Shown here in pieces: positions 10,977 to 58,081 of a stretch of 61,911 bases of DNA. The stretch is taken from contig JAHRAZ010000126.1 in NCBI GenBank assembly GCA_020027475.1, positions 1 through 61,911 of the forward strand. Reading direction: 5' to 3'. Position 1 is the stretch's first letter. Every line of letters begins with the position of its first letter. This DNA comes from Microthrixaceae bacterium. GTDB taxonomy: Bacteria; Actinomycetota; Acidimicrobiia; Acidimicrobiales; Microtrichaceae. The position numbers were made by a program, and so were the translations under genes. The notes beneath the pieces are model-generated. The model searched no databases. It was not told the DNA's origin and worked only from the letters and a program-made list of their open reading frames with translations.

Positions 10977-11006
10977 TTGAGTCGAACAACCGTTCGTAAC
11001 TACACT
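10977..11006 (+). promoter_or_regulatory. recA promoter with LexA (SOS) box in the spacer
   Basis: A sigma-A-type promoter TTGAGT (10977-10982), 18-base spacer, TACACT (11001-11006). Inside the spacer lies TCGAACAACCGTTCGT (10982-10997), a GAAC-N4-GTTC palindrome matching the actinobacterial LexA operator, so bound LexA would block RNA polymerase. A leader of about 140 bases separates it from recA; no convincing riboswitch or terminator is visible in it. Confidence 0.85.
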
Positions 11007-11152
11007 GTTGTCACTCGGAGTTCTTGATCCGGGGTCTGACAACAACCAACACCGCAGTTACCCAAGACCAGCTATCCAATATCACTGCAACGGTGCCTTG
11101 TCACACCCCGACAATATGTTGACTCCACGAGATCCAACCAAGGGGAATGAAC

Positions 11153-12214
11153 GTGGAAGACAAAGAAAAAGCACTTGAAATGGCCCTCGGCCAGATCGAG
11201 AAGCAGTTCGGCAAAGGCTCGGTCATGAAGATGAGCGACAAGGGCACGATGGCGATTGAATCCGTGCCCACTGGAGCGCTTTCGCTCGATGTCGCTCTGG
11301 GTATTGGTGGGTTGCCCCGGGGACGTGTCACGGAGATCTTCGGTCCTGAGGCATCCGGCAAGTCAACGCTCGCCATGCATGTCGTGGCTGAAGCGCAACG
11401 TAATGGTGGTGTCTGCGCTTATGTTGACGCGGAACACGCCATGGATCCCGTATATGCGGCAAAGCTCGGTCTGGATGTGGATGAACTTCTCATCTCTCAG
11501 CCGGACACCGGCGAACAGGCTCTTGAGATCACCGACATGCTTGTACGTTCCGGTGCAATCGATGTGATCGTGATCGACTCCGTTGCGGCACTCACACCCC
11601 GCGTTGAAATCGAGGGTGACATGGGTGACACCCACGTCGGGCTCCAGGCACGACTGATGTCACAGGCACTGCGCAAGCTCACTGCCAACCTGAACAAGTC
11701 ACAAACCATCTGTGTGTTCATCAATCAGCTGCGGGAAAAGATAGGCGTGATGTTCGGCTCGCCGGAGACCACTCCCGGCGGTCGCGCACTGAAGTTCTAC
11801 AGTTCTGTCCGCCTCGACATCCGCCGGATCGAGGCCATCAAGGACGGCGTCGAGATCGTGGGCAACCGCACTCGTGTGAAGGTCGTCAAGAACAAGGTGG
11901 CTCCACCGTTCAGACAAGCCGAGTTCGACATCATGTACGGCCGGGGAATCAGTCGTGAAGGGTGCCTGCTGGATTTGGGTGTGGACCTCAACATCGTGAA
12001 GAAGTCCGGTGCTTGGTACACCTACGAGGGTGAACAGCTTGGTCAAGGTCGTGAGAAAGCCAAAGTGTTCCTCACCGAGAACCCAGAGATCATGGTCGAG
12101 GTCCAGGACCGCATTCTCAAAGAGGTCGGTATTCATGAGTCAGATGAGCCAGAGGTCGACACTGAGACCGGGGAGATCCTGAGCGACGAGGATCTGCCCA
12201 TCACCCTCGACTGA
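11153..12214 (+). CDS. recA: Recombinase RecA
   Basis: Strand-exchange ATPase and LexA co-protease. Walker A is GPEASGKST; the MAW, loop L1/L2 and C-terminal acidic regions are all present, and no intein interrupts the gene. I prefer GTG at 11153, giving the standard [12 protein letters not shown] start, because the ribosome site AGGGGA (11141-11146) is six bases before it; an ATG at 11147 abuts that site. Length is about 353 residues, normal. Regulated by LexA through the box at 10982. Unlike many actinobacteria, no recX follows; miaB starts 34 bases later. Confidence 0.97.
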
Positions 12215-21865: not shown

Positions 21866-22498
21866 TCAGAGTTTCCTGAGCACGGTCACCACCACACCGA
21901 AGAGCACTACCTCGTTGGCGGGAAAGCGCATCGGTTCGAGCGATTCGTTGGCTGGTTCGAGGACAATTTCGGAGCCTTCGGAGCGGTAGCCTTTCACCGT
22001 GGCTTCCTCCCCGGGTATTCCGGCGACCACAGTGTCGCCATTGCGGGCGGACGACTCAACTCTGGCCACCACGAAATCGCCATCGAGGATTCCCGCGTCG
22101 ATCATCGACTCACCGCGAACACGAAGCATGAACAATTCGCCGTCCCCCGTGAAATCCGAGGGCAGCGGCACAAGTTCTTCCACTTGTTCCTGAGCGAGTA
22201 CACCTGTGCCTGCGGCCACGTCTCCCACCAACGGAACGTGCCTGGTTGGCCGGCGTTCCGCAGTGGTCTGGGATTCCGTGTCTGAGGTCACCTCGATTGC
22301 GCGCGGCTTGGTGGGATCCCTGCGCAGGAATCCCAACCGCTCGAGAGTGTGCAGGTGATTGTGGACTGAGGAAGGTGAGGCCAGACCCACGGCTTCGCCT
22401 ATCTCGCGGACCGACGGGGGATATCCGCGGTCCCGTATCGACTGATCGATGTAGGCGAGTACGTCGTGTTGGCGCTGGGTGAGATTCTGTTCGGTCAT
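21866..22498 (-). CDS. lexA: SOS repressor LexA
   Basis: A 210-residue S24-family repressor. The winged helix-turn-helix is at residues 5-70 (LTQRQHDVLAYI, PPSVREIGEAVGL, SSVHNHLHTLERLG). The self-cleavage site is Ala96-Gly97 in DVAAGTG, and the catalytic dyad is Ser131 (RGESM) and Lys169 (EATVKG), so RecA-stimulated autocleavage should work. The start is the ATG preceded by AAGGAGG on the minus strand; longer in-frame starts cross the LexA boxes. Four LexA boxes lie between this gene and its divergent neighbour, so it represses itself. Confidence 0.96.
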   Translation of the reverse strand: MTEQNLTQRQHDVLAYIDQSIRDRGYPPSVREIGEAVGLASPSSVHNHLHTLERLGFLRRDPTKPRAIEVTSDTESQTTAERRPTRHVPLVGDVAAGTGVLAQEQVEELVPLPSDFTGDGELFMLRVRGESMIDAGILDGDFVVARVESSARNGDTVVAGIPGEEATVKGYRSEGSEIVLEPANESLEPMRFPANEVVLFGVVVTVLRKL

Positions 22499-22514
22499 CT
22501 GGGATATTCCTCCT

Positions 22515-22645
22515 TCGAACACCTGTTTGACAAACGGTAGCATCTGGGTGGTTCCAGGTGGTGGAACACTTGTTCGGAAATATGCTTGACGTCGAACAGT
22601 CGTTCGGTCAACATGGCCAGCACGCTGCCTCGAACAGTCGTTCGG
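22515..22645. promoter_or_regulatory. Divergent SOS control region with four LexA boxes
   Basis: Four 16-base GAAC-N4-GTTC type sites: TCGAACACCTGTTTGA (22515-22530), TGGAACACTTGTTCGG (22562-22577), TCGAACAGTCGTTCGG (22592-22607) and an identical TCGAACAGTCGTTCGG (22630-22645). Box 1 is one base off in its right arm (GTTT), the others have perfect cores. The third is flanked by mirrored TTGAC elements: TTGACG at 22586-22591 on the plus strand and TTGACC on the minus strand (22605-22610), which would serve as -35 elements for the LysM gene and lexA. The box spacings are 47, 30 and 38 bases. Confidence 0.85.
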
Positions 22646-22718: not shown

Positions 22719-23084
22719 ATGGCCCTAACAATTGAGATTCCACATACCCGTCGTCACCCGTCAGAGCCGTCACTCGCATGGCTGTATCCGCCAACCCGCG
22801 TGATCTACCTGATCCGCCGAGCAGCGGTTTTTCTGGTAATGGCGGCAATCGTCACCGGTGGTGCCCTGACCGCGTTCTCACACTCGGGCGATTCTGCACC
22901 GATGCGCCCGATCTCCTCGGGTGAGGTGATCAGTGTCGGCGCCGGCGACACCTACTGGTCTATTGCGGGCGGTTACATGACCAGTGTGGACCGGCGCGAA
23001 GCGGTCGCCGACCTGATCGCGCTCAACGGAGGCAGCAGCAGCCTGCGTGTGGGTGATGTGATCGCGATCCCCTCACAGCGGTGA
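22719..23084 (+). CDS. SOS-controlled LysM membrane protein, ChiZ/DivS-like division inhibitor
   Basis: A 121-residue protein with a short cytoplasmic start, one membrane helix (about 33-55) and an extracytoplasmic LysM peptidoglycan-binding domain (about 69-117: VISVGAGDTYWSIAGGY ... LRVGDVIAIP). Divergent orientation from lexA and the LexA boxes match M. tuberculosis Rv2719c/ChiZ and corynebacterial DivS, which stop septation during DNA damage. The function is therefore inferred from context and architecture, not sequence identity. ATG 22719 has GAGGGAGG eight bases upstream. Its last 12 bases overlap the convergent RibD-like gene. Confidence 0.82.
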   Translation: MALTIEIPHTRRHPSEPSLAWLYPPTRVIYLIRRAAVFLVMAAIVTGGALTAFSHSGDSAPMRPISSGEVISVGAGDTYWSIAGGYMTSVDRREAVADLIALNGGSSSLRVGDVIAIPSQR

Positions 23085-23813
23085 GCGTCGATAGCAGAGC
23101 ATGAGGTGATCCCCGTCGCGCAGCACACGGTGCAGGTGGAAAGATCGGCCAACACCGAGTCCACCGAGCAAACCAGTGTCGGGGCCGCCCACCAGGGTCG
23201 GTGCGAGCGTCAGGTTGTACTCATCGATCAGGTCGTCTGCGGCAAGTTGGCCAAGCAGATGCGGTCCTCCCTCACAGATCACGTTCCTTACGCCCCGCGA
23301 GTGGAAGGCCGACATGAGTTCGATCATGTCGACGCCGTCGTCGCCGACTGCGAGGTCGTCCAATCCGTGGAGATTGGCCGGAAGGGTCATGCCGCGGGGG
23401 TGAGCCATGAAGGGCACCGGTCCGTCATCGGTGAGTATTGGTGGCTCGGTTCCGAGGTCCATCGATCGGCTCACCACCACCAGCGTCGGCGCGGGTTCCT
23501 GCCCGTTCTGGCGTCGGGCGTCCAAGGAGAACTCCTGAGCCCGTGGGCGGTGATACTTCTCCTTGCGTACCGTGGACGCTCCAGCCAGTACCACGTCGCT
23601 CAGCGCCCGCAGGGCCATGAACATCTGCTTATCGCCGGGAGAGCTCAGAGCCCCGGAAAGCCCGTCGCTGGTGTAGGAACCATCGGCGCTCATGACCATG
23701 TTGGTGCTCACCCAGGGCCTGGCTGTCGGTGTCGGAGCGCGGTCGGCGCGAAGTACCCCGAACACCTCCGCAGTGTCCTCCAACGGGACTCCGGATGCGA
23801 GAAGTTGCTCCAT
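23073..23813 (-). CDS. RibD C-terminal domain (pyrimidine reductase-like) protein
   Basis: A 246-residue protein with the DHFR-like fold of the RibD C-terminal domain. Motifs include PWVSTNMVMSADGSYTS, DVVLAGASTVRKEKY (NADPH-binding loop), and VICEGGPHLLGQLAADDLIDE, the strongest RibD_C signature. In RibD it reduces the ribosyl-amino-pyrimidine of riboflavin synthesis, but stand-alone members have uncertain substrates and some reduce folates. No deaminase domain and no rib genes are nearby. It is divergent from nrdJ, so a role in dihydrofolate or nucleotide supply is possible but unproven. Confidence 0.82.
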   Translation of the reverse strand: MEQLLASGVPLEDTAEVFGVLRADRAPTPTARPWVSTNMVMSADGSYTSDGLSGALSSPGDKQMFMALRALSDVVLAGASTVRKEKYHRPRAQEFSLDARRQNGQEPAPTLVVVSRSMDLGTEPPILTDDGPVPFMAHPRGMTLPANLHGLDDLAVGDDGVDMIELMSAFHSRGVRNVICEGGPHLLGQLAADDLIDEYNLTLAPTLVGGPDTGLLGGLGVGRSFHLHRVLRDGDHLMLCYRRSPL

Positions 23814-24126
23814 TGGCCGGAGCGTAGTTCAGAAAATGTTTTCCACAGGTTTATCCAGAGGCTGTGGATGCGGAAAGGTGATGAAAAGCAGTCAAATGCA
23901 ATAAACCCGGCCGCACTGAGTGGTTGGCCACACCGGAGTTCCTCGGCTCCGATCACCATCGGTGGTGGGACGGTTCATTGCCCCAGTAACCGGTGCAGGA
24001 ATATGCACACCTATCCACAGGTTGTACCACTTTCGCCACACAACAGAACCGTCGTAGGGTTCCCGCGGCCCAACGGGCAATATCCACGAAACGCGGAGGA
24101 TCCATGAACGGCGGAGGGCCTTGCAG
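23814..24126. promoter_or_regulatory. Non-coding region before nrdJ with DnaA-box-like sites
   Basis: A 313-base gap between two divergent starts. It carries four 9-mers close to the DnaA box TTATCCACA: TTTTCCACA (23839-23847), TTATCCAGA (23851-23859), GCATCCACA on the minus strand (23863-23871) and CTATCCACA (24011-24019), each with one or two mismatches. The first and third also form an inverted repeat TCCACAG/CTGTGGA around a 13-base centre. I saw no cobalamin-riboswitch B12 box and no clear NrdR palindrome. GGAGGG precedes the nrdJ ATG. Confidence 0.5.
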
Positions 24127-58065: not shown

Positions 58066-58081
58066 GTGAACAGATGTTCGG
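58066..58081 (+). promoter_or_regulatory. LexA (SOS) box of uvrA
   Basis: GTGAACAGATGTTCGG, with a perfect GAAC-N4-GTTC core, 34 bases before the uvrA ATG and 28 bases behind the aroC start. It fits uvrA's classic SOS control and could also affect aroC. Confidence 0.72.

Follow-up and report, generated by a model that had tools for sequence, protein, structure and literature searches.

A probable divergent SOS control region with four LexA boxes between lexA and a membrane-LysM gene in a Microthrixaceae genome

The lexA region of Mycobacterium tuberculosis, one of the closest described counterparts of the locus studied here, is reported to carry four SOS boxes, which lie between lexA and the LysM gene Rv2719c (chiZ) that diverges from it (PMC8151990, citing Dullaghan et al. 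2002). There, lexA responds to one box only; the three others, and a PafBC motif with them, serve the divergent operon, which is given as Rv2019c-Rv2017c in the text and as the rv2719c operon in the legend of Figure S6 (PMC8151990). Our locus likewise has four GAAC-N4-GTTC-type boxes and a divergent LysM gene; the M. tuberculosis LysM gene is induced by DNA damage. The likeness is one of layout, and differences are the PafBC motif on the LysM side in M. tuberculosis and the greater length of ChiZ, which is described as a cell-wall hydrolase (PMC3989709). In Bacillus subtilis, the SOS-induced division inhibitor YneA can block division only if its membrane helix and LysM domain are both present (PMC13396833); like the LysM gene here, yneA lies near lexA and encodes a single membrane helix with an outer LysM domain after it (PMC13396833, PMC3989709). 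Corynebacterium glutamicum has an SOS-induced division suppressor gene, divS, adjoining lexA, however DivS is by description unrelated in sequence to YneA (PMC3989709). The lexA gene of Streptomyces venezuelae is autoregulated by LexA through a box of the form GAAC...GTTT, about 53 bp before its start codon, and has two boxes of different strength, one of them weak, against the four found here (PMC9380542).

The locus lies in the window, that is, the whole stretch of 61.9 kb which was analysed, within a genome of 2.84 Mb in 149 contigs. It belongs to an actinomycete of Acidimicrobiales/Microtrichaceae type. The nearest relatives of its LexA come from metagenome-assembled genomes (MAGs) under the names Actinomycetes, Microthrixaceae and Acidimicrobiales; those in Aquihabitans and Candidatus Microthrix are more distant. 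From a 220-bp intergenic region, lexA (21866-22498, minus strand, 210 aa) and a membrane-LysM gene (22719-23084, plus strand, 121 aa) diverge. The lexA product scores 220 bits with TIGR00498 (cutoff 111), matches PF01726 and PF00717 and aligns to the solved structures 3k2z and 8s7g; with the cleavage-site motif AAG at residues 95-97 (the Ala-Gly pair), S131 in GESM and K169 in TVKG, it is, judged by these features, a genuine LexA with intact cleavage and catalytic motifs. The ATG at 22498 was taken as the lexA start, since both the AAGGAGG ribosome site (22509-22515) and the LexA homology fit it; a long minus-strand reading frame from 22720 was rejected in this role. The LysM protein has one predicted membrane helix at about residues 35-53 (the hydropathy peak) and then a LysM domain at residues 73-118 (PF01476, 23.7 bits, cutoff 20.9). 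Since this topology matches and its score on the YneA model NF010723 is about 21 bits (21.2) against the family cutoff of 60, we call it YneA/ChiZ-like rather than YneA; as a putative division inhibitor it is identified by topology and gene order, not by function.

The earlier note on this DNA had reported four GAAC-N4-GTTC-type sites in 131 bases, two of them identical, which is borne out. Box 1 (22517-22528, minus strand, GAACACCTGTTT, or AAACAGGTGTTC read in the lexA direction) is one base off the consensus, while box 2 (22564-22575, minus strand, GAACACTTGTTC), box 3 (22594-22605, plus strand) and box 4 (22632-22643, plus strand) fit GAAC-N4-GTTC exactly; boxes 3 and 4 are both GAACAGTCGTTC and remain identical over two flanking bases on either side (TCGAACAGTCGTTCGG). 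When the 220-bp region was shuffled 20,000 times with its dinucleotides preserved, more than two sites never arose, and 19,402 of the shuffles had zero. The whole window holds 8 such sites, 4 of them in the lexA/LysM intergenic region. A stricter pattern, GAACRNNYGTTC, has 22 matches genome-wide and its reversed control 19, so lone matches carry little meaning in this genome, whose LexA regulon was sampled by pattern search only; 3 of the 22 fall within 80 bp in the lexA/LysM region. A MAG could contain sequence errors, but all four boxes are found again in L271, an independent assembly from the same genus, and the lexA-proximal three are kept in most of the family according to the family alignment. 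The boxes thus point to a Gram-positive-type LexA (SOS) operator region, to which LexA is expected to bind, and the earlier proposal of a LexA operator cluster serving both lexA and the divergent LysM gene is supported; the cluster is conserved across the order. In L271 and L046, a fifth box (GAACAGTTGTTC) lies upstream, followed 14 bp on by the near-box GAACAGTTGTAC; box number therefore changes within a genus.

Both promoters were placed by cross-species footprinting, namely the alignment of related loci, in which the locus counts share ancestry and are not independent. A generic sigma-70 promoter scan gave no match in this GC-rich region and is uninformative here. On the LysM side, the predicted -35 element is TTGACG (22586-22591, plus strand): TTGAC stands 2-4 nt before a divergent-strand box in 83 of 127 loci, against a mean of 1.5 and a maximum of 5 in shuffles. 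After a 17-bp spacer, which contains box 3, comes the predicted -10 element CAACAT (22609-22614, plus strand), a weak hexamer that is also present in L271 and L007. The spacer from the -35 element to nAnnnT measures 16-19 bp in 48 of 89 loci, against 22-25 bp in 6 and 26-29 bp in 15. Transcription of the LysM gene is expected to start near 22621, which would put box 4 within the transcript (about +11 to +22), the same place as in the genus mate L271.

On the lexA side, an extended -10 element, TGCTACCGT, lies at 22542-22534 on the minus strand (hexamer 22539-22534), between boxes 2 and 1, and is conserved in the family alignment; no clear -35 element accompanies it. Counted from the box start on the lexA strand, TASnnT occurs at 33 bp in 78 loci, at 35 bp in 10 and at 36 bp in 13, and at other offsets mostly in 0-4 loci, except for 24 loci at offset 48, which is mostly the same -10 element viewed from a box 15 bp upstream. 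In the window the distance from box 2 is 36 bp, and the register of the family is 35/36 bp, not 33 bp. The lexA start is expected near 22527, inside box 1, and box 2 would cover the -35 region of lexA as well as the bases just upstream of the LysM -35 element. Of 30 single-box lexA regions from other Actinobacteria, 15 have the 33-bp register, and in several more the distance is 32 or 34 bp; because these genes share its distance to the -10 element, box 2 appears to be the core lexA operator.

Elsewhere in the order, boxes and promoter hexamers may coincide. A degenerate box, GAACNNNNGTAC, lies 24 bp past the core lexA box in other lineages, and its TAC starts the lexA -10 element (TACGAT/TACGCT); this fusion is seen in 36 of the 87 loci with the 33-bp register, including L085, L086 and L088. 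Another arrangement occurs in a lineage with L012, L018, L063, L222, L224, L230, L231 and L234, where TTGAC on the lexA strand precedes a box and GAACAT follows exactly 17 bp on. That GAACAT forms the left half of the following box, or of a remnant of one, at a distance of 15 bp, so that an apparent LexA half-site is used as the -10 element, and the LysM promoter faces it head-on.

Regarding the number of boxes, the earlier note took one or two as the rule for lexA genes and four as special, which does not hold in this group. In the order, 131 non-redundant lexA upstream regions were counted: one box was found in 3, two in 13, three in 51, four in 53, five in 10 and seven in 1, so that at least three boxes are present in 115, against 0.01 boxes per region expected from mononucleotide shuffles. 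The four-box lexA/LysM layout is therefore normal here and is already known from M. tuberculosis; in the open literature, we found no paper on box numbers in Acidimicrobiia. The LysM partner is conserved as well: a LysM profile match lies divergent to lexA in 137 of the 143 order loci with at least 700 nt upstream (the profile HMM having been trained on part of the same loci) and in 39 of 80 loci elsewhere in the phylum, and none was found on the lexA strand in the order. In lexA regions from outside the order, the mean box number is 2.87 if a LysM gene diverges from lexA and 1.46 if none does (Mann-Whitney p ~2e-7, kinship being ignored). Since box counts track the divergent LysM gene, the simplest reading of four boxes is that two promoters share one region. 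Multi-box lexA regions without a LysM match divergent to lexA are found in L011, L013, L023, L070, L210 and L220. Multi-box lexA/LysM control regions are thus the usual arrangement both in this order, whose actinobacteria are largely uncultured, and in related classes.

The boxes, the genes, the conserved box-promoter registers and the conserved LysM partner can be read directly from the DNA, and from them we infer LexA binding, start sites, repression and division inhibition as parts of one proposal: the locus is very probably a divergent SOS control region that serves lexA and a YneA/ChiZ-like membrane-LysM gene, in which two promoters have about two operators each. LexA dimers on boxes 2 and 1 would bracket the lexA extended -10 element, at the -35 region and the transcription start respectively. 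On the other side, a dimer on box 3 would fill the LysM promoter spacer, box 4 would occupy the first transcribed bases of the LysM gene, and box 2 would lie just upstream of its -35 element. After DNA damage, RecA-stimulated self-cleavage of LexA would empty the boxes, lexA and the LysM gene would be expressed, and newly made LexA would shut both again. The number of boxes would then mainly reflect the two promoters with their operators. A promoter-like register alone is not a proof of in vivo occupancy of each box, and the use of the map is that it assigns each box to a promoter in testable form.

Other explanations can be weighed against this proposal. The earlier note had placed box 3 between back-to-back -35 elements of lexA and the LysM gene, so that one LexA dimer could close both promoters. 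The letters are indeed there, TTGACG on the plus strand and TTGACC (22606-22611) on the minus strand, and the -35 role stands for the plus-strand copy only. TTGACC reads TTGTCC in the congeneric L271 (identical in L046), and the rest of the family lacks it; TTGAC and GTCAA around one box occur in 2 loci only, the window (L001) and L216. Moreover, TTGACC overlaps the predicted LysM -10 element, the minus strand has no TAnnnT-type -10 element 16-18 bp downstream of it, and the conserved lexA -10 element sits about 60 bp away, between boxes 2 and 1. When conservation in relatives was checked, the box-promoter registers proved to be kept and the mirrored pair did not; we thus reject the mirrored elements, judge TTGACC to be no promoter element and regard closure of both promoters by a single dimer on box 3 as hardly credible. 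This corrects the idea of an unusual mirrored promoter in the region, and box 2, which lies between both predicted promoters, is the better candidate for a shared element. A division of labour like that reported for the four-box M. tuberculosis region (PMC8151990), with box 2 alone controlling lexA and the other three acting on the LysM gene, would agree with the match between box 2 and the lone operator of single-box lexA genes. It is nonetheless rather unlikely, as box 1 lies over and downstream of the predicted lexA start and recurs there in many loci, whereas it is about 60 bp upstream of the LysM -35 element, too far for simple occlusion. That some boxes have no function, being decayed or decoy sites, would suit the deviating base of box 1 and the range of box number from 1 to 7 in the order, but it is very improbable given the retention of four boxes (plus a fifth) in L271 and of the lexA-proximal three in most of the family.

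The spacing of the boxes bears on a further alternative, in which a cooperative LexA array nucleates on the four boxes and makes the LysM gene respond with a delay, in a steep or graded way. In its favour, adjacent boxes in the order prefer set spacings, with peaks at 15, 24, 28-31 and 44-46 bp. At 10.5 bp per turn, however, these leave remainders of about 4.5, 3, 9 and 3, that is, they fall on different helical faces, and promoter geometry accounts for each: 28-31 bp is the distance from box 2 to box 3, 44-46 bp that from box 2 to the start-site box, and the 24-bp spacing of other lineages is the one that puts the TAC of the degenerate box on the lexA -10 element. Helix-phased LexA-LexA contact was therefore rejected as the cause of the spacing, and the array appears improbable. 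Since the spacings share no helical face and each is explained by the promoters, the main constraint is more plausibly promoter fit than LexA-LexA contact, which is compatible with cooperativity. Two other candidates were also dropped: a 15-bp lattice with a hidden degenerate box at +15 of every LysM promoter (2 of 89 score at least 6), and a degenerate box hidden midway between the two boxes of the 30-bp pair, for which +15 shows no clear excess and the LysM -35 element occupies the place. Beyond the two-promoter proposal, it is conceivable, if quite doubtful, that in Acidimicrobiales boxes and hexamers are fused in fixed registers, so that box number and order would set separate derepression thresholds for lexA and the LysM gene; this draws on the place of box 3 within the LysM spacer, that of box 2 at the lexA -35 region and, in other lineages, the right half of the degenerate box serving as the lexA -10 element.

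In respect of the neighbouring genes, nrdR follows the LysM gene in Mycobacterium and Corynebacterium. Most other genomes of the family likewise carry it past the LysM gene, about 1 kb from lexA, and it is absent from the genome studied here and from its genus mate; where the relatives carry it, the window has a RibD_C gene and a B12-dependent ribonucleotide reductase (23073-24121). Of the actinobacterial lexA/LysM (Rv2719c-type) module, the divergent LysM gene sharing the lexA operator region is thus present and the nrdR neighbour missing, and nrdR is an accessory, not a defining feature of this divergent SOS module. Elsewhere in the window, recA (11147-12214) is preceded by one perfect box, CGAACAACCGTTCG, at 10984-10995, 163 bp before its start, which indicates a single recA operator against four at lexA/LysM. 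Between an aroC-like chorismate synthase gene (minus strand) and uvrA (from about 58113, plus strand), TGAACAGATGTTCG at 58068-58079 is probably the SOS box of uvrA.
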